From assembly GCA_947626275.1 (NCBI GenBank), contig CANQRL010000002.1:62001-126000 (forward strand): 64,000 nucleotides of DNA. Reading direction: 5' to 3'. Shown piece by piece: positions 14,102 through 24,975 of this stretch. This DNA comes from an uncultured Bacilli bacterium. GTDB taxonomy: Bacteria > Bacillota_I > Bacilli_A > RF39 > UBA660. The stretch's first letter is position 1. Each line of letters opens with the position of its first letter. The notes below the pieces were generated by a model. The model saw only the letters and a list, made by a program, of their open reading frames with translations, was not told the origin of the DNA and ran no database searches. The position numbers and the translations under genes were made by a program.

Positions 14102-14136
14102 AAAAAAAGAGTATTTTTACTTTTTGAAAAATACTC
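14102..14136 (-). terminator. Terminator after the 101-residue membrane protein gene
   Basis: A ten-base-pair stem (GAGTATTTTT 14109-14118 with AAAAATACTC 14127-14136) is followed by T-rich sequence in the minus direction, separating this gene from ruvAB. Confidence 0.75.
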
Positions 14137-14422
14137 GAATAATTAAGAATAAGAAATAAGCCATCAATAGGACAAACATCCAGGCAACTAGGGTATAGAT
14201 AATCCCATCCATGTACCTATCGGCAACCCATAACAAATTATTAGGAAATCTTCCTAGAAAATTCGCTACTTCATTTTTTCCAATATGGTTAGAAATAAAG
14301 TCAAAAATACGAAGCGCCAAATCAAGAGCTGCAATTCCATAAGCTGCCTTTTCTAACTTTCTTCGATAACAAGCCCAACAAATGATGACTATTACCAAAA
14401 ATAATATAACAAATGCATCCAT
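14117..14422 (-). CDS. Small membrane protein of unknown function
   Basis: The 101-residue product has hydrophobic helices at about 3-18 and 75-97 and a weaker one in the middle. Short basic stretches (YRRKLEK, KK at the end) suggest cytoplasmic loops. I do not recognise a family. It sits between the Tim44-like cluster and ruvAB, separated from ruvA by its own terminator, and may be the last gene read from the upstream cluster. Confidence 0.6.
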   Translation of the reverse strand: MDAFVILFLVIVIICWACYRRKLEKAAYGIAALDLALRIFDFISNHIGKNEVANFLGRFPNNLLWVADRYMDGIIYTLVAWMFVLLMAYFLFLIIRVFFKK

Positions 14423-14460: not shown

Positions 14461-15315
14461 TTATCGGTTTGACCATCCAGGATACCACTTTTTCATGACA
14501 TCCACTTTTATATTCTCATAAACGGTTGGTAAATGCTGCTGACAATTAGGACAAGTATCTCCCTCTATATTGGTGTTCCCACAATTTGGACAATATGGAC
14601 TTTTCTTAAAATCACAGAGGAACGTTATGAGATAAGATCTTTCAACCTTCTTATCTTTTGATCCACTAACGACATTTTCCTTTTCATCTACAAAATAATC
14701 ATAGAAATTAGCAGTCAATTTAATACTAAGAACCATTTTATCATCTATCGGCTTCTTTTCTACTAAAGTAATTTCGCTAATAAGAAAATCACGGGTGACT
14801 TCTCTTTGGTTTTTCGTTTTTAGTGTTTCCCATTGTTTTAGACAAGCGTTATACATTTTTTCCGTTCCTAGCTTTTTGATTTCTTCTTCATCAAAATTCG
14901 TTTTTGCCAAAGAAACACGATTATAAATAGATTTTAAATCTTCCATTAGAGGCAAATCCTCTTCTGTTAGAGGAATCGGCTGATACTTGACTTGTGAAAA
15001 TTTATCAGGATGAGTCAACCGGTAAATCGGAACTCCAACAAGAATGAGAAGGAATAAAAAGAGAATGATAAAAACCGTAATCGTCGTAAAATAAAGGAAT
15101 GCTATGGCGGAAACAAACCCAAAAATAAGGGGAAGAAAGAGTTTTTTACTCTCTTTCCAACCAAAATTTTTGACTAATTCTATAAGAATCACAATGAGTA
15201 CAATGGCAAGAACAATACTAACAGCCAATATATGAGAGGAAAGTAAAGAGTCCCCAGAAAAGTTAGCATTTTCCTTTGCTAAGAAAAAAGGAAAGTTTTC
15301 TATTAGCATTTTCAT
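14461..15315 (-). CDS. Tim44-like domain membrane protein with zinc ribbon (cluster member 6)
   Basis: The 284-residue product has three hydrophobic segments in its first 110 residues. A Tim44-like module follows (LAKTNFDEEEIKKLGTEKMY through NFYDYFVDEKENVVSG) and then a C-terminal zinc ribbon, CPNCGNTNIEGDTCPNCQQH. It is the most divergent of the six: the signal-like N-terminus and the ATDSG start of the exposed segment are missing, and the usual LVTDELY motif reads LGTEKMY. The start overlaps the upstream stop (ATGA), so translation is coupled. Function is unknown; Tim44-type domains elsewhere bind membranes and translocation partners. Confidence 0.72.
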   Translation of the reverse strand: MKMLIENFPFFLAKENANFSGDSLLSSHILAVSIVLAIVLIVILIELVKNFGWKESKKLFLPLIFGFVSAIAFLYFTTITVFIILFLFLLILVGVPIYRLTHPDKFSQVKYQPIPLTEEDLPLMEDLKSIYNRVSLAKTNFDEEEIKKLGTEKMYNACLKQWETLKTKNQREVTRDFLISEITLVEKKPIDDKMVLSIKLTANFYDYFVDEKENVVSGSKDKKVERSYLITFLCDFKKSPYCPNCGNTNIEGDTCPNCQQHLPTVYENIKVDVMKKWYPGWSNR

Positions 15316-16292
15316 TCTAGATTAAGAGCCTCCTTTTTGCTAAGGCGAAGATCTTTTCCTAATGCTAAAATATTTGTTCCACAATAAGAACATACCGTTT
15401 CCTTTTCTTCTAATTTAGCGCCACAAGAAGGACACCTATCAATTTTTTGCTGACTATAGACAAACGTTAATAGATAGGCTTGATGCCGTTTGGTGCTATT
15501 ACTGCCACTCATTAATTTTTGATTTTCATCGATGATATAATCGTAGAAATCCACCTCTACTCGAACTTTGATAGCTGTCATATTCTTATCAAATTCTTGA
15601 CTCACAAGAGATATTTTATGTTCTTCAAAATCCTTGAGTACTCGTTTGTAATTTTTTTCTCTTAAATCATCTAACTTTCCGGCATATACATTGTATAATT
15701 CGTCCGTTACCAATTTTCTTAATTCTGAGTAGTCAAATTCCGATAAAGCATTTTGAACTTTCAAAAAAAGCTCATAGCACTCCTTTTTGATTTCCTCATT
15801 TTCAACGGTATGAGGAAGTTCTTTGACGTAGGGTTGATAGTCAGATTTGGTCAATGTTCTTTTCGGTGTATCCTTTTTTTGCTTCATTACTAGATAAAGG
15901 ACAAGTCCCAAAAAGAAGAGGATCATAAAGATAGAAACGTAAATTGGAAAAAGGATAAAAAGTTCTAATAGAGTAAGTCCTAAAAAGAGGAATAGAATAC
16001 TTTTTTTCCCTTTTTTCCATCCTTTATTTTTTAAAATATGCGTGGTTATCACAAGGAAAATAACTGCGAAACCAATGCTTGTAAAAATCGCTTTTTCTAC
16101 TAGATTAAAATCCCCACTAAATAATCCGGATGTGGACAAATGAATATCGTATCCATCATTTTCATCTGGTTTTATATGGACGCCTGTAGCAGCCTGAACA
16201 GATGACACCCCACAAGCAAACCAACAAGTACATAGGATGGCAATAGAGAGGATTAAAGAAAGATATTTTTTTAACGTTAATCTTCTGACCAT
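15312..16292 (-). CDS. Tim44-like domain membrane protein with zinc ribbon (cluster member 5)
   Basis: The 326-residue product has an N-terminal signal-like helix ending SSVQAATG, then two or three membrane segments. The Tim44-like module reads LRKLVTDELYNVYAGKLDDL and VDFYDYIIDENQKLMSGS. The zinc ribbon reads CPSCGAKLEEKETVCSYCG, followed by a LRLSKKEA tail shared with its neighbours. An ATG at 16292 preceded by GGGTGGTGG is chosen; it overlaps the end of the upstream gene by 16 nt. It is a paralogue of the four upstream genes. Confidence 0.75.
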   Translation of the reverse strand: MVRRLTLKKYLSLILSIAILCTCWFACGVSSVQAATGVHIKPDENDGYDIHLSTSGLFSGDFNLVEKAIFTSIGFAVIFLVITTHILKNKGWKKGKKSILFLFLGLTLLELFILFPIYVSIFMILFFLGLVLYLVMKQKKDTPKRTLTKSDYQPYVKELPHTVENEEIKKECYELFLKVQNALSEFDYSELRKLVTDELYNVYAGKLDDLREKNYKRVLKDFEEHKISLVSQEFDKNMTAIKVRVEVDFYDYIIDENQKLMSGSNSTKRHQAYLLTFVYSQQKIDRCPSCGAKLEEKETVCSYCGTNILALGKDLRLSKKEALNLE

Positions 16293-17857
16293 GATACCAC
16301 CACCCAATCATATTCTTCTTTTGGTATAGCTGATTGACAATATGGACATACTCCCGTTTGATTATAATCGATAGGAGCTCCACAATTTGGACATTTTGCC
16401 GCTATTCCTAAATTTTTTCTCTCTCTTTTCTCTTCTAATGTTAAATATTCAACATGTTTCTTCTTGTTTTCGTCTCCTGATTTTAACAGTTTTGTCTGGC
16501 TGTCTATTTTATAGGACTTATAATAAGAAGTAATCTGTACTGAAACGCGATATTTATCTGGTAAAACTTGAACATTTTTGATCTCTGTACGATTGACATT
16601 TATCTCTTCATATTTCTGTATCTCAGATGATTTTTTCATACTATCCATTCGTTTTTCAAGTTGTCGTCTTAAATTATCTCCCAAAGAAGAAGATATAGAG
16701 TCTAAATCTTGGGAAGAAAGGGATTCTAATAATCTTGTGAAGAGATTATCCACTTTAGCAACAAACATATCTTCGTTGAATTCTGGTTCCAATTCTTTCA
16801 ACTTTACTAGTCCATTTTCTCTTTCTAATTTTCCTGGTCTTCCCTCTTTTTTGGCAAGACGCATAGAAGTACCTAAACCTTGGATAGGAGACTGGCAATA
16901 TGGACAAACCGTTACTGCATTCTCTAATTTACCACCACAACTTGGACAAGTATCTGAAGAAGTCTCATCACATACAAAAGTAAGAAGATATTGCATATGC
17001 ACTTTTCTTTGGTCAGTTCCTCGCACGATTTCCTTTTTATCATTGACAACATAATCATAAAATTCTACTTCTAATTGCATTTTTAAAGTAGTAACATTTC
17101 CTCCTACCTGTTTACCGATGATAGATTGTTTTTTGACAACAAAATCTTTCATAATGTTCTGTTGACCTTTTAATTTTAAAACCCCTAATTGATTTTGATA
17201 AGTATGGTATAGTTCGTCTGTTACCAATTTTCTTAATGTATCTTCATCAAAATTCATCCAAGCAATTTGAACATCCCTAAAAATTTTATATCCTAATTCT
17301 AGATATTTTTGATCTTCCGGTGTAGAAACATAGTAGGAAGGAGGAAGTTCATCATAAATTTTGATATCTTGTTTCTTACTAAACATAGAGAAGAAGAACC
17401 CTCCAAAGAGAAGGACGAATAAAAGTCCAACGAAAAGGACAGGAGCAAAACTTGGGAAAAGAATAAGAACTAACCAAGCAACCCCTAAAAGTAAGGCAAT
17501 ATTCAATTTTTTTAATGATTTTTTTCTCGTCGTTTTCGAATTGCTTGCTACAATAATAATTACGATTACTACGAGAACAAAGGTAATGGCAAATATAACT
17601 GTCCCTAAACTAACATCACCGGAATAACTTCCAGAAGAGGAACTATGACTAGAACCACTATCATAAGAATCATAGTCGTAGTCATAATCATAACTAGATC
17701 CAGAATCGTAATCGTAGTCATAACTAGATCCGGAGTCATAATCAACATCCCACCCTGAATCGGTTGCGATTGACTGCATAGCTAGTTCTGTATGGAAAGC
17801 ATACATTAGTCCTAACATGATAATCGCTGCTAAAAATAAAGGTATTTGTTTTTTCAA
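16277..17857 (-). CDS. Two-module Tim44-like/zinc-ribbon membrane protein (cluster member 4)
   Basis: At 526 residues this is the largest member. It has a signal-like N-terminus almost identical to that of member 3, then an exposed Tyr-Asp-Ser-Gly repeat (residues 40-70) and two or three membrane helices (about 85-165). Tim44-like module A (LRKLVTDELYHTYQNQLGVL) and ribbon CPSCGGKLENAVTVCPYC follow. A second module B (residues about 355-480) ends in ribbon CPNCGAPIDYNQTGVCPYC. The second half is homologous to the separate 180-residue gene at 18864, so this is a fusion of the two gene types. Translation appears to begin at TTG 17857, with AGGTG eight bases upstream. Confidence 0.75.
   Translation of the reverse strand: MKKQIPLFLAAIIMLGLMYAFHTELAMQSIATDSGWDVDYDSGSSYDYDYDSGSSYDYDYDYDSYDSGSSHSSSSGSYSGDVSLGTVIFAITFVLVVIVIIIVASNSKTTRKKSLKKLNIALLLGVAWLVLILFPSFAPVLFVGLLFVLLFGGFFFSMFSKKQDIKIYDELPPSYYVSTPEDQKYLELGYKIFRDVQIAWMNFDEDTLRKLVTDELYHTYQNQLGVLKLKGQQNIMKDFVVKKQSIIGKQVGGNVTTLKMQLEVEFYDYVVNDKKEIVRGTDQRKVHMQYLLTFVCDETSSDTCPSCGGKLENAVTVCPYCQSPIQGLGTSMRLAKKEGRPGKLERENGLVKLKELEPEFNEDMFVAKVDNLFTRLLESLSSQDLDSISSSLGDNLRRQLEKRMDSMKKSSEIQKYEEINVNRTEIKNVQVLPDKYRVSVQITSYYKSYKIDSQTKLLKSGDENKKKHVEYLTLEEKRERKNLGIAAKCPNCGAPIDYNQTGVCPYCQSAIPKEEYDWVVVSWSED
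17648..17740 (-). repeat. Degenerate Tyr-Asp-Ser-Gly coding repeat
   Basis: Tandem short repeats encode YDYDYDSGSS-type units in the predicted extracytoplasmic segment of the 526-residue protein. The paralogue at 17869-18867 has a Ser/Gly-rich segment in the same place without the same regular repeat. Confidence 0.7.
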
Positions 17858-17868
17858 TATCTCTCACC

Positions 17869-18867
17869 TCACCTTTGTTCCAACACTTCTTTTTTAGAAA
17901 GTCGAATACTGTTTCCCACAGCCTGAATAGGAGAACCACAATAAGGACAAGTAGTTTGTTTTCCATCTAAAGAAGCACCACATCCTGGACATTCTATCGA
18001 TTTTTCATTATAGACAAATGTCAATAAATAGGTCATGTGAACTTTTCGATTTTTGTTTCCTCTAACCACTTTTTCCTTTTCATCAACAATGTAATCATAA
18101 AAGCTTACTTCTAGTTGAACTTGAAACGTAATTAGGTCATCCTTTTTTTCTTTTTTAACAAGGAAAATTCTCGTCAATTCAAACTGATTCATAATGTTTT
18201 TTTGATTCTTTATTTTCAAAGTATCTAACTGGTTACAATACATATTGTAAAGTTCGTCTGTTACTAGATTTTTTAAAGCATCATAATCAAAATTCATCCA
18301 AGCCATTTGAACGTTGTAGAATACGATGTAACTTTCATTGACAAGTTCTTGATCTCCCTCTTCCAATGGGATTTCTTTATATTTTTTACTAGATCTAATA
18401 GAAGAAATCTTTGTCTTTTTAGGAGAAGAGGAAAGAGACATATAAAGAACAAAAATAACCATGGCAATGACAAATAACGTAATAACATAAAGAGGGAAAA
18501 GAATAAGAACATCAATTCCAACATAAAAGGCAAGAGCAACAAGAACATCTATTTTTCCCTTTTTCCATCCCTCTTTGATAAGAAGAACAGTGGCCGTGAT
18601 GACAAAAAGAGCTAAAACAATCGAAGAAATTAAAATCATAGCCCCGACAGGAGGAAGTTCATACGTCAAATCTCCACCACCAGAGCTGGAAGAAGAATCA
18701 TAGGAAGACCAAGAATCTGACCCTCCAGAATAGCCTCCACCACTATCATAACTCGTATCAAATCCTGAATCCGTAGCGATTGACTGCATAGCTAGTTCCG
18801 TATGAAAAGCATACAAGAGTCCTAGCATGATAACCGCTGCTAAAAATAAAGGAATTTGCTTTCTCAT
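17869..18867 (-). CDS. Tim44-like domain membrane protein with zinc ribbon (cluster member 3)
   Basis: The 332-residue product has an N-terminus (RKQIPLFLAAVIMLGLLYAF) nearly the same as member 4. A Gly/Ser/Tyr-rich exposed stretch and three hydrophobic helices follow. The Tim44-like module reads LKNLVTDELYNMYCNQLDTL and VSFYDYIVDEKEKVVRGN, and ribbon CPGCGASLDGKQTTCPYCG ends in LRLSKKE. ATG 18867 with GGAGAG upstream is chosen over a TTG at 18882. It overlaps the upstream 180-residue gene by 4 nt. Confidence 0.75.
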   Translation of the reverse strand: MRKQIPLFLAAVIMLGLLYAFHTELAMQSIATDSGFDTSYDSGGGYSGGSDSWSSYDSSSSSGGGDLTYELPPVGAMILISSIVLALFVITATVLLIKEGWKKGKIDVLVALAFYVGIDVLILFPLYVITLFVIAMVIFVLYMSLSSSPKKTKISSIRSSKKYKEIPLEEGDQELVNESYIVFYNVQMAWMNFDYDALKNLVTDELYNMYCNQLDTLKIKNQKNIMNQFELTRIFLVKKEKKDDLITFQVQLEVSFYDYIVDEKEKVVRGNKNRKVHMTYLLTFVYNEKSIECPGCGASLDGKQTTCPYCGSPIQAVGNSIRLSKKEVLEQR

Positions 18868-19406
18868 AAAGATTCTCTCCAAGAAACTAAAACCCAGTCA
18901 TAATCTTCTTTTGGCATCTGTTGTTTACAATATTCGCATACGCCCGTTTTATTATAATCAATAGGAGCCCCACAGTTTGGACACTTTGCCGCAATACCTA
19001 AAGATTTGTGTTTTCTCTTTTCTTCAAAAACGAGAAAATTAGATTTCTCTACCCTTCTTGAATTATCTCCGCTCTTTAATTTTTTCGTACTATTATCCAA
19101 CTTATAATCCATATATCGAGAAGTTAGAAGTACTTCTATCCGATATCTGTCTTCCAAGATTTCGACCTTTTTTATTTCTGTATGTTTTACATTGAGTTCA
19201 TCATACATCTGAATCTCATTATTCGCTTTCAAATTTTCAATTCTAGTGGAAACCTCTTCTCTTAAAGTTTCTCCTAGAGAAGAAGATACTCTTTCAATAT
19301 CCCGGAACATAATGGAATTCAACATCAAAACAAAGATGTTATCCACTTTCGTTTTAAACATACTTTCCGTAAAAGACGGTTCTAATTTTTGTAATTCTTC
19401 AAACAT
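18864..19406 (-). CDS. Soluble Tim44-like/zinc-ribbon protein (cluster member 2)
   Basis: The 180-residue product has no membrane segment. It begins MFEELQKLEPSFTESMFKTK and has a Tim44-like fold region (MFRDIERVSSSLGETLREEV through YMDYKLDNSTKKLKSGD). It ends with ribbon CPNCGAPIDYNKTGVCEYC and the tail PKEDYDWVLVSW. It aligns along its length with the C-terminal third of the 526-residue protein, including the same ribbon and the DYDWV.VSW end. AGGAGGTATGTAAA precedes the ATG. It probably acts as a partner of member 1 in the same way the two halves act within member 4. Confidence 0.78.
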   Translation of the reverse strand: MFEELQKLEPSFTESMFKTKVDNIFVLMLNSIMFRDIERVSSSLGETLREEVSTRIENLKANNEIQMYDELNVKHTEIKKVEILEDRYRIEVLLTSRYMDYKLDNSTKKLKSGDNSRRVEKSNFLVFEEKRKHKSLGIAAKCPNCGAPIDYNKTGVCEYCKQQMPKEDYDWVLVSWRESL

Positions 19407-19407
19407 T

Positions 19408-20238
19408 TTACATACCTCCTGTCGTTTGATGAATAACTTCCTTTTTCGCTAGACGCATATCTGCCGAAAGACCTTGAATTGGCGATCTACAATACTCACA
19501 GAAATTTTGTTTTGTAAGAGGAGCTCCACAGCTTGGACAGACCTCCTGAGCAACGATATTCGCAACAAAAGTAAGTTTATACTGCATCGTTACCATCGTC
19601 GACTTCTTTCCTCTTACCACCTTACCACTCGCATCTACTACATAATCATAAAAACTGATAGATAAAAAGATGACCGTCGTCTCGACATTTTCTTCCACGG
19701 TTTGGGATTGTAACCCAATCTGTCTCAAAATAAAATTATCCATGATGTTTTTTTGTCCTTTTAGTTGCAAAGTATCTAATTGATTTTTATAGGTATTATA
19801 AAGTTCATCTGTGAGCAAATTTCGTAGTTTCTCATGATCAAAATTCATCCAAGCAATTTGTGTATCATAAAAGACTTGATAAGCTCGAAGAAGAATTGCT
19901 TTCGTATTTGGATCAAAAGCGCTTGCTTCAATAAAATGAATATTTTGGATAGGGTCTACTTTCTTTCCCTTCTTAGGTTTCAAAGTGGAAATCAAAAGGA
20001 AGATAACCAAGATACAAACAGGAATTCCAACAACAGGATACTCGATAACTAATAGGATTAATCGCAATACTAAAAAGATGAGATCTCCCCCTCCAGAGGA
20101 AGAAGACGAATCACTATCGTAGTCAACATCCCATCCAGAATCTGTTGCGAGCATAGATGTCCCTGCAACAACCATAAATATGAAAACAACAACGAGGCAT
20201 ATCCCCATTATTATCCAGTACTTCTTCTTTTTTTCCAC
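19408..20238 (-). CDS. Tim44-like domain membrane protein with zinc ribbon (cluster member 1)
   Basis: The roughly 276-residue product has an N-terminal helix, the exposed ATDSGWDVDYDSDSS segment, a second hydrophobic region and the Tim44-like module LRNLLTDELYNTYKNQLDTL. Ribbon CPSCGAPLTKQNFCEYC and tail MRLAKKE close it. GTG 20238 is preferred as start because GAGGTG lies six bases upstream; an in-frame ATG at 20250 has only a weak site. It is the first gene of the six-gene minus-strand run and is followed after 1 bp by member 2. Confidence 0.75.
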   Translation of the reverse strand: MEKKKKYWIIMGICLVVVFIFMVVAGTSMLATDSGWDVDYDSDSSSSSGGGDLIFLVLRLILLVIEYPVVGIPVCILVIFLLISTLKPKKGKKVDPIQNIHFIEASAFDPNTKAILLRAYQVFYDTQIAWMNFDHEKLRNLLTDELYNTYKNQLDTLQLKGQKNIMDNFILRQIGLQSQTVEENVETTVIFLSISFYDYVVDASGKVVRGKKSTMVTMQYKLTFVANIVAQEVCPSCGAPLTKQNFCEYCRSPIQGLSADMRLAKKEVIHQTTGGM

Positions 20239-20274
20239 AACACACCTCATTTACTCTTTCTACCTTACTCTCTC

Positions 20275-20283
20275 ATTATATCA
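20275..20283 (-). promoter_or_regulatory. Extended -10 promoter of the Tim44-like cluster
   Basis: TGATATAAT on the minus strand (20283-20275) directly follows the clpB terminator and precedes cluster member 1. No good -35 is seen. Confidence 0.5.
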
Positions 20284-20313
20284 AAAAAGAGAAAATATTA
20301 CTTATTTTCTCTT
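20283..20313 (-). terminator. Terminator of clpB
   Basis: An AAGAGAAAATA/TATTTTCTCTT stem overlaps the clpB stop, and on the minus strand it is followed by a run of six T. Confidence 0.85.
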
Positions 20314-22415
20314 AAAAAAAATCCATTTTTATCAACATCGATAATAATTTCAGACTGAAACTTAATGTTATCCATAATTAAATTGTTCGCAATCAAGGTC
20401 TCTAAGTTCCGAGAGATAAATCGCTTAATAGGACGTGCTCCATATTCTGGTTCAAAAGCTTGATCAATAATATACTCTTTTGCCTTATCCGTAAGAAGGA
20501 AAGTAACCTTTTTATCACTTAATCTTGCTTCTATTTCTCGAATAATTTTATCAATAATCTCAGAAATGATATCTTTTGTTAAAGACTTAAAGACGATTAC
20601 TTCATCGATACGGTTGATAAATTCAGGTCGAAAGTTGAGTTTTAGTTCCTTCATTACTAACTCTTCACTATCTTTTTCGTTATTTAAAATGTACTCGCTT
20701 CCTAAGTTAGAAGTCATAATGATAATGGTATTTTTAAAGTCTACTGTTCTTCCTTGAGAATCCGTAATTCGACCATCATCTAGGATTTGTAATAAAATGT
20801 TGAATACATCACGGTGAGCCTTTTCTATTTCATCGAATAGGACAATGCTATAAGGATTTCTTCGAACTGCCTCGGTCAACTGTCCCCCTTCATCATATCC
20901 TACATATCCAGGAGGCGCTCCTACCAATCTAGCAACACTATGAGCTTCCATATATTCGCTCATATCAATTCGAACCATATGACGTTCATCATCGAATAGT
21001 TCTTCAGCAAGTGATCTTGCTACTTCTGTTTTTCCAACACCAGTAGGTCCTAAAAACATAAAAGAACCAATCGGACGATTAGGATCCTTAATACCTGCTC
21101 GAGCCCGTATGATGGCTTCACTTACTAATTTTAAAGCCTCATCTTGACCCTTTACTCTTCTTTTAAGATTCTCTTCTAGATTTAAAAGTTTCTCTCTTTC
21201 CCCGCCAACTAATTTAGAAACAGGCACATTCGTCCATTTAGAAACTACCTGAGCGATATCTTCCTCAGTTACTTCATCACTTAGAATTTGAGAATCCGTC
21301 TCACTTCTTAGCTCTTCTAACTCTTTATTTAAAGTTGGAATTACCCCATGACGAAGTCGCGCTGCTACTTCTAGGTTGTAATCATTTTCCGCTTGCTCCA
21401 ATTCAAAGGTTCGTTTTTCGATTTCTTCTTTTTTGGCATTAATCTTAGATAGGATTGATTTTTCTTCTTCCCATTTGTTACGAAGATTTTTTTCTTCTTC
21501 TTTCATGCCTTTTAACTTTTCATGAATTTCCTCTACCCTTTTCTTAGAAAGCTCATCCTTTTCTTTTTTCAAAGCCTGAAGTTCAATTTCTAATTGCATA
21601 ATTTTACGGGTTAACGTATCTAGTTCCGTTGGAACAGAATCCATTTGAACTTTAATCGTTGAGCAGGCTTCATCCACTAGATCAATCGCTTTATCTGGTA
21701 AGAAACGATCTGTAATATAACGATCAGATAAGGTAGCAGCTGCCACTAACGCTTTATCTTTAATATTGACACTATGGAAGACTTCAAAACGAGATTTTAA
21801 CCCACGCAAAATGGTAATCGTATCTAAAACGGTAGGTTCTGATACTTTTACTTTTTGAAATCTACGTTCGAGTGCCCCATCCTTTTCAATGTATTTACGA
21901 TACTCATTTAAGGTAGTAGCTCCAATTAGATGAATTTCGCCACGCGCTAACATCGGTTTTAGCATGTTACCAGCATCCATTGCTCCTTCCGCTCCCGCAC
22001 CGACAATCATGTGGATTTCATCGATAAACATAATCGTTTCGCCATCTGTTTTCTCAATTTCTTTCAAAACCGCTTTTAAACGGTCCTCAAATTCACCACG
22101 ATACTTCGCGCCAGCAATTAAGGCACCTAAATCGAGTTCCCAAATCGTTTTTCCTTTTAGGCTAGCAGGTACATCACCTTTTACAATCCGTTGGGCAAGA
22201 CCTTCTACAATAGCTGTTTTACCAACTCCTGGTTCTCCAATTAAAACGGGATTGTTCTTCGTCTTTCTAGAAAGAATTCGCGTAATGCTTCGAACCTCTT
22301 CATCACGGCCAATAACCGGATCTACCTTTCCATCACGAACGGATTTGGTGATATCCCTTCCATACTTCTCTAATACATTTTCCAAACTTTCTTGATATGG
22401 ATTTTGCATATTCAT
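20298..22415 (-). CDS. clpB: ATP-dependent chaperone ClpB lacking the N-terminal domain
   Basis: ClpB is a hexameric AAA+ disaggregase that works with DnaK. The 705-residue product opens near [19 protein letters not shown] and goes straight into AAA-1 (GEPGVGKT at about 60-67, Walker B MFIDEIH). A long coiled-coil middle domain follows (about 240-350, including [20 protein letters not shown]), then AAA-2 (GPTGVGKT) and the C-terminal D2 small domain. The two Clp_N repeats (about 150 residues) of standard ClpB are absent. The middle domain and lack of a ClpP-binding loop motif distinguish it from ClpC. GAGGGGG lies before ATG 22415. It is controlled by the CIRCE element upstream. Confidence 0.95.
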
Positions 22416-22454
22416 AATATCCCCCTCTTTCATAATCTGAACGATACATATAAC

Positions 22455-22482
22455 ATTATACTATTATTTTAGCACTTGTCAA
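22455..22482 (-). promoter_or_regulatory. Sigma-A promoter of clpB
   Basis: Perfect -35 TTGACA (22482-22477) and perfect -10 TATAAT (22460-22455) are separated by 16 bp. The -35 lies inside the CIRCE operator. Confidence 0.9.
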
Positions 22483-22495
22483 GTGCGAGTGCTAA
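22469..22495. promoter_or_regulatory. CIRCE operator (HrcA binding site)
   Basis: The inverted repeat TTAGCACTT, nine bases, GAGTGCTAA matches the CIRCE consensus with one mismatch in one arm. It covers the -35 of the clpB promoter, so HrcA binding would block RNA polymerase. No hrcA gene is in the window. Confidence 0.95.
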
Positions 22496-24117: not shown

Positions 24118-24975
24118 TTAATTATTCCCTTCGGTATTTTCTAGATGATTATGTCCACATTTTGGGCAAAATTTACCGATAACCTTCTCACCACAAATGG
24201 GACAGAAAAGATACCGATAAGTGGTTTGATACCGAGTTGCGACAACTGGAGCATTATAAGCATTTTCCGCTATGTCATAGTGAACACTAGCTAATTGACG
24301 TACTTTTTTTGGTACCTCATTAAATAAGAAACATACAAAAATCACAAATAAAATTGTAAATGGACTGGCCATTGTCGCACCATATACTAAATAGTCATAG
24401 ATTCCATGAAAAAGAATGGGATAAAAAAGACTTTTCCATTTGTGTTTTTTGGATAATTCTTTATTTTTATGTTTATCTGCTGTCTTAGCCATTCCTAAGT
24501 GATATCCCATGATGACACCAAAACAGGCATGTCCTGGAACTGCTGTAATCGCTCTTACAACTGCGGTAGAGAGACCACCCGTTAAGACATAAATGATGTT
24601 TTCAATACAAGCAAATCCTAGGGCTACAAAAGTGGAATAAACAATCGCATCATACGCATGATTAAATTCTTTATTATGGTAACCAATGACATAGACAAAA
24701 AACCATTTCGAAAATTCCTCGATAAGGGCAACTCCAATAAAAACATAAGGAATGAGTGTAAAAATATTTAGATTCTCGGCATTATCCGTTGAGAAGAAAG
24801 GAATCGTTTGATCCATGACGTAAGAAACACCAAGCGTAATAGCCGTTGACCCTATTCCCATCAAAAACAAACTGATTAGTAACCCCTTTGGTTCTTTTTC
24901 AAAATCATTATTATAAATGTATTGTCCTAATAGAAAGACAGGTAAAATCGATAAAAAAATTAAAATTGGTCCCAC
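24118..24975 (-). CDS. PrsW-family intramembrane glutamic protease with C-terminal zinc ribbon
   Basis: The 285-residue multi-pass membrane protein has the PrsW motifs: LIEEFSKWFFVY (EExxK), ALGFACIEN, VPGHACFGVIMG and FHGIYDYL. In Bacillus PrsW starts the cleavage of an anti-sigma factor; CPBP and PrsW share the fold. Unusually, the C-terminal tail adds a zinc ribbon, CPICGEKVIGKFCPKCG, probably cytoplasmic. The start is GTG 24975 with AAGGTAGGG upstream, and an extended -10 TGTTATAAT lies just upstream. The ribbon echoes those of the Tim44-like cluster. Confidence 0.85.
   Translation of the reverse strand: MGPILIFLSILPVFLLGQYIYNNDFEKEPKGLLISLFLMGIGSTAITLGVSYVMDQTIPFFSTDNAENLNIFTLIPYVFIGVALIEEFSKWFFVYVIGYHNKEFNHAYDAIVYSTFVALGFACIENIIYVLTGGLSTAVVRAITAVPGHACFGVIMGYHLGMAKTADKHKNKELSKKHKWKSLFYPILFHGIYDYLVYGATMASPFTILFVIFVCFLFNEVPKKVRQLASVHYDIAENAYNAPVVATRYQTTYRYLFCPICGEKVIGKFCPKCGHNHLENTEGNN

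Follow-up and report, generated by a model that had tools for sequence, protein, structure and literature searches.

An amplified array of Tim44-like zinc-ribbon proteins in a gut Bacilli bacterium, with relatives beside SPFH genes

Genes and signals at the locus

The window analysed here is a 64-kb stretch of DNA from an uncultured gut bacterium of the Bacilli. Between a clpB-type gene and ruvA, it carries a minus-strand block of six tightly packed open reading frames (ORFs), which we call A to F. The first-pass annotation had described a close-packed block on one strand, and so it is. The spacings from A to F in order are 1, −19, 11, −31 and −4 bases, with the overlaps hinging on mechanically called starts. 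As a gene family, the array is genuine, conserved and expanded, far past chance.

By alignment, its proteins are of two types. In the M type (A, C, D1, E and F), hydrophobic segments at the N-terminus lead into a Tim44-like head and then a CxxC...CxxC ribbon, and the S type (B and D2) has the head and the ribbon only. Gene A (19408–20250) encodes an M protein of 280 residues with a signal-like helix at 5–32, a DSGWD tail, helices at 55–88, the head and the zinc ribbon (PF04280, 52.5 bits). Gene B (18864–19406) encodes a soluble S protein of 180 residues, head and ribbon (45.9 bits), and C (17869–18882) an M protein of 337 residues (40.5 bits; alignment A1).

Gene D (16277–17857) encodes 526 residues, in which an M-type part (about 1–345, D1) is fused to an S-type part (about 346–526, D2). 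PF04280 matches it in two stretches (90.8 bits) and our own profile finds two domains. E (15312–16307) is a diverged M type of 331 residues without the DSG tail motif in a motif scan (48.2 bits). The most diverged M type is F (14461–15315; 284 residues; 43.5 bits), in which neither a signal peptide nor a DSG tail is evident by the motif scan and which sits on a long tree branch.

The array had been divided earlier into five membrane proteins and one soluble version. The membrane–soluble split stands, but the M-S fusion in D had gone unnoticed, and thus the six genes hold seven heads. Of the motifs said to be shared, the ribbon does trail each Tim44-like head in the alignment of the array proteins and FYDY occurs in A, C, D1, E and F, but LVTDELY is not universal, reading LLTDELY in A and LGTEKMY in F. 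The dN/dS ratios against the nearest relative are about 0.11 (B), 0.23 (A) and 0.28 (D1), so these three pairs are under purifying selection.

Upstream of the array and outside it, the clpB-type gene (20298–22433, minus strand) encodes a 711-residue ATPase without the ClpB N-terminal domain (TIGR03346, 1127 bits against a cut-off of 1232; profile positions 144–850 of 853). A CIRCE-like site, the HrcA operator, overlaps a consensus promoter ahead of it (22469–22495, minus strand; one mismatch to the consensus, 0.05 expected in the window). Genome-wide, there are only three such sites at two or fewer mismatches, and the other two precede Hsp20-like and HtpG-like genes, as read from the sequence. 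Most clpB-bearing related loci also have a CIRCE-like site ahead of clpB.

An A+T-rich, terminator-like hairpin (20287–20313, minus strand; −9.3 kcal/mol) spans the clpB stop codon and is followed by a T-run. Then comes the extended −10 promoter-like sequence TGATATAAT (20275–20283, minus strand) ahead of A. The hairpin is identical in L086 and L087, and some hairpin with a T-run is found in all seven sites examined. The equivalent gap of all seven contains TGNTATAAT, even at one site without an array. Hence, the array probably has its own promoter. We do not claim HrcA or heat-shock co-regulation with clpB, because in the window and its relatives the hairpin and a fresh extended −10 lie between clpB and A.

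On the other side, a 101-residue membrane protein is encoded ahead of ruvA (14117–14422, minus strand). It is present in 9 of the 12 genus genomes, including the array-less G053 and G119, and was rejected as a seventh member because it is kept where the array is absent. Elsewhere in the window, upstream of translation genes, lies a gene for a PrsW-family membrane protease with a zinc-ribbon-like C-terminal end (24118–24975), which scores 122.5 bits with Pfam but falls short of the NCBIfam PrsW cut-off.

Heads, ribbons and tails

In a Pfam profile search, all six array proteins exceed the PF04280 gathering score of 29.6, at 40.5–90.8 bits. Structures were predicted for two of them, A and B, singly. 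Alignment A4 comprised 70 of the 75 retained S proteins with eight others, and A5 part of the 81 retained M proteins with others. The model of B, from 78 sequences, has a mean pLDDT of 93, and its top PDB match is the C-terminal domain (CTD) of human Tim44, 2cw9 (Foldseek E 1.2e-5; Z 14.4, rmsd 3.0 over 148 residues). The AlphaFold model of A, from 72 sequences, has a mean pLDDT of 87 and shows helix 5–32, a low-confidence stretch at 48–55, helices up to residue 88 and then the head. Its top PDB match is also 2cw9 (Foldseek E 5.8e-6). The Tim44-type module recognised earlier in the six genes is thus borne out by the profile in all of them and by the predicted fold of A and B.

The fold has more than one use. 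Mitoribosomal mL45 and plant PARC6/ARC6 score nearly as well as 2cw9 against the S model of B, and most structural matches to that model are at about 10–16% identity. Hence, the fold by itself cannot indicate 'protein import', and nothing beyond the predicted fold supports a role of the mitochondrial translocation type. Tim44, mL45 and PARC6/ARC6, alike in fold, have other partners. The profile search that had been proposed as a check assigned PF04280 and left the NCBIfam Tim44_TimA adaptor and TimA models (NF033778, NF033779) below their curated cut-offs in all six proteins (best 59.2 against 80 and 26.7 against 200). To this weak similarity, the array proteins add the ribbon and the DSG tail.

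The tail is a mark of the M type. At the 80 relative loci described below, DSG[FW]D lies in the first 90 residues of 80 of 96 M proteins, in none of the 80 S proteins and, of 983 other ORFs, in only one, which encodes an M-like protein without a head (L173). In 73 of the 80 M proteins with the motif, the residue before it is alanine, often within V/I/A/L-K-A. Within the window, A, C and D carry the motif preceded by 'AT' not 'A', and E and F lack it. From the sequence pattern, Ala-DSG[FW]D may be where signal peptidase cuts, leaving a tail exposed.

The exceptional protein (L173:4752-5138; 128 residues) has a signal-like segment, a DSGFDSSYDSD tail and membrane helices without the Tim44-like head. 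Its gene sits between M and S genes.

SPFH linkage and history of the array

A search of one-per-species genomes with the S profile gave 99 relatives, and the locus counts rest on 80 of them. All but one of the 80 records are titled as MAGs, from uncultured Bacilli, Firmicutes, Clostridia and similar. Proteins were labelled S or M by whichever of the two profiles scores higher. This is the survey of other genomes that had been suggested, and it bears out the pairing: 68 of the 80 loci have an M gene no more than three genes from S. A true SPFH ORF (YdjI-like; at least 330 residues matched, above 350 bits) is somewhere in 32 of them. It is absent from the other 48, for part of which contig ends account.

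Within three genes of S, an SPFH gene is found in 29 of the 80 loci; for the 52 loci whose flanks reach 4 kb or more on each side, the figure is 21. When the neighbours within four genes of the block were clustered over the 80 loci, SPFH was the commonest family (31 loci), always on the same strand (31/31) and at position +/-1 in 28. The SPFH-to-S gap has a median of −1 base in 14 cases, so the linkage in these relatives is operon-like. Next commonest are clpB (14 loci, 3 on the same strand) and the spoIIGA-like and sigE-like genes (10 loci). In nine loci (L181, L192, L210, L215, L217, L223, L226, L231 and L236), SPFH/S/M blocks face a convergent clpB, and clpB therefore adjoins the module in two different arrangements.

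The three SPFH proteins that were scanned, from S loci and contig C1 of the window's genome, have a Band_7_1 match with C-terminal ribbons. One SPFH match (L162) was dropped, as it covers only residues 264–290 at 20.7 bits and reads as a PrsW-like protein with a ribbon. At L183, SPFH, M, M, S, TFIIB-ribbon and TPM genes stand in a row. In a single-sequence search, this is the only one of the 80 loci with TPM and TFIIB-ribbon genes beside M/S, and such genes are also near M in L047.

The adjacency extends further. In other Bacilli families, M relatives directly adjoin SPFH in L139, L141 and L142, and S-like L143 does likewise. Listed by genome, the cases outside the window's family with SPFH alongside are the M relatives of G410, G353 and G226 and the S-like protein of G370, and SPFH was not seen near the relatives in G189, G305, G447 and G253 when their ORFs were read by eye. 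A phylum-wide search with alignment A1 matched 97 of 392 genomes, most rows being the ribbon only (profile about 244–280), and the long matches outside the window's family come from about a dozen genomes. SPFH is absent beside the window array and beside all six other arrays of the genus.

Across the order (117 genomes), 20 genomes have PF04280 and, as read by eye from the table, Band_7_1 is matched over at least about 145 profile positions in 29. The long Band_7_1 match occurs in 15 of the 20 PF04280 genomes versus 14 of the 97 others (Fisher p 1.9e-7, ignoring relatedness). In the genus, PF04280 is found in 11 and Band_7_1 in all 12 of 12 genomes. A profile search that matches the B. subtilis control genome found PspA in none of these 12, and above the cut-off in none of the 117 of the order, two of which hold a sub-threshold fragment. 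The window's genome itself has a YdjI-like SPFH gene on contig C1, adjoining one for a 250-residue Tim44-like ribbon protein (L039; about 21–22 bits, below the cut-off), and a second, stronger Band_7_1 protein on contig C4.

The site ahead of ruvA was compared in the genus genomes except G117, G120 and G125, where ruvA was not found. It holds M-M-m-S-M-M in G121, M-M-S-M in G126, M-S-M in G123 and G124 and S-M in G122 and G118. The gene number thus runs from 2 to 6, with zero in G053 and G119, and every one of the seven genus arrays includes an S head. S proteins encoded at this site fall into one clade (8 rows, 100/100), which gives its S genes a single origin.

The M tree joins A to the first M of G123 and of G124 (99/95), and D1 to the second M of G123 (95/96). 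Four G121 and three G126 M proteins make a group of their own (99/98). These groupings indicate that an M-S-M core expanded separately in two branches. The placing of C, E and F has weak support, and the F branch is very long. Among the 80 other S loci, from a collection that may omit records very near the window's genome, there are no blocks of more than three genes. The array's ancestry is well supported: an M-S pair that elsewhere is often part of an SPFH (YdjI-like) module has been amplified specifically in this genus.

Possible role, rivals and other settings of the heads

Few cases of recruitment of SPFH (flotillin-like) proteins to the bacterial membrane are known. Of characterised sets, PspA-YdjGHI of B. 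subtilis comes closest, in which, according to two papers, recruitment of YdjI, an SPFH protein, and of PspA to the membrane requires YdjG and YdjH (PMC8581546; PMC9239133). Ravi and others describe YdjG as ribbons, an NTF2-like domain and a transmembrane segment and YdjH as TPM (PMC11237479).

Both systems have an SPFH protein with a C-terminal ribbon and membrane proteins, which in B. subtilis anchor it (PMC8581546), and L183 joins SPFH, TFIIB-ribbon and TPM genes to M and S. They differ in that the genus lacks PspA and the window array has no adjoining SPFH, TPM (YdjH) or TFIIB-ribbon (YdjG) gene. Moreover, the M and S heads are PF04280, whereas the B. subtilis control genome matches Band_7_1 and PspA but not PF04280. 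YdjG and YdjH are thus analogues of M and S, not shown homologues.

From the gene linkage and by analogy with B. subtilis, the preferred reading, at about even odds, is that the array, multiplied in this genus and no longer next to SPFH, encodes anchors and an adaptor for an SPFH envelope scaffold that works without PspA. The M proteins would span the membrane with the acidic, DSG[FW]D-rich tail outside and the Tim44-like/zinc-ribbon head in the cytoplasm, and S would be a soluble copy of that head. M and S heads may come together as a platform beneath the membrane on which the SPFH protein docks. Such a platform could help to keep the membrane orderly when the envelope is stressed, in the way that YdjG/YdjH act for YdjI and PspA, though here without PspA. 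The unlinked copy in the window might still serve the SPFH protein of contig C1.

A broader form of this proposal is more tentative and on the doubtful side. Several membrane Tim44-like/ribbon heads and a soluble head would make a mixed-subunit, PspA-independent SPFH platform under the membrane, its anchor number varying between species by duplication and fusion, and this would be a separate membrane-stress machinery in many uncultured gut Bacilli. Gene linkage points to this family as a candidate for both anchor and adaptor of YdjI-like SPFH proteins in PspA-less bacteria, and the Tim44-like fold would gain a testable bacterial role beyond protein import.

The SPFH protein of the genus has its own adjoining Tim44-like partner (L039), so the array may have left the SPFH partnership. 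It would then be an independent array of diversified surface-tail M proteins selected for variety, for example envelope sensors. This is rather doubtful. It agrees with the 2 to 6 genes at one site and none in G053 and G119, the missing DSG motif of E and F and the location of the genus SPFH elsewhere, but the conserved part is the heads and ribbons, which are under purifying selection, and all seven genus arrays retain the S head. Adaptors of the Tim44/TimA type, whose heads bind a membrane translocase or chaperone and aid protein movement or folding, with the adjoining ClpB as a partner, are unlikely. The TimA models stay below cut-off, no outstanding translocase gene is among the frequent neighbours and clpB, although near the S/M block in 14 of the 80 loci, is on the opposite strand in 11 of these 14. 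The match to the Tim44 CTD and the weak NCBIfam adaptor match favour such a role, but mL45 and PARC6 use the same fold, so function is not told by it.

That clpB lies directly upstream in six of the seven genus arrays, the window's included, with one of the genome's three CIRCE-like sites and a consensus promoter ahead of it, raises the idea that the array is a cluster of heat-shock helpers transcribed together with clpB from the promoter under CIRCE control. We consider this quite unlikely, as the hairpin and T-run at the clpB stop and then the extended −10 recur in all seven sites examined, and clpB is mostly convergent in the other loci of the family. An anti-phage defence locus could explain the patchy presence and the variable copy number but is highly improbable, since PADLOC models match only at the ribbon level, in D (E 0.0035), and the neighbours met most often are SPFH and housekeeping genes. 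A phage origin was also rejected: PHROGs matches are weak and mostly at the ribbon level, and a phage collection gave one match, to an unverified and unannotated 6.6-kb faecal scaffold.

The earlier remark that no bacterial system of this make-up is described holds in part. It stands insofar as the Tim44-SPFH pair was found in no paper of the literature searched, where SPFH with Tim44 gave one unrelated paper. It has to be qualified in that Monoglobus pectinilyticus (NZ_OY725743.1) already has an annotated 'TIM44-like domain-containing protein' adjoining an 'SPFH domain-containing protein', and PspA-YdjGHI is a near characterised set. The Monoglobus gene has a PF04280 head with a partial ribbon match and lies 15 bases ahead of the Band_7_1 gene. 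It differs in being a single gene of 328 residues, with no separate S partner or tandem array seen within 18.5 kb. Hence, the array is not categorically new, while the Tim44-SPFH combination is absent from the literature searched.

The heads occur in other settings, too. In ten loci (L163–L171 and L179), a lone S gene is directly behind spoIIGA-like and sigE-like genes, so named by reading their sequence. This is a second conserved context, in which the soluble head may be tied to sporulation or its regulator. At L040:7886-10669, next to an S gene, two adjoining proteins each have two Tim44-like heads, the first without a ribbon, as another mode of head multiplication. In the window's genome, a 264-residue Tim44-like ribbon protein (L038:7963-8757; G000:C4) is encoded immediately downstream of the genes for RNA polymerase beta/beta', with similarly placed counterparts in G053 (L042) and, diverged, in G117 (L090).
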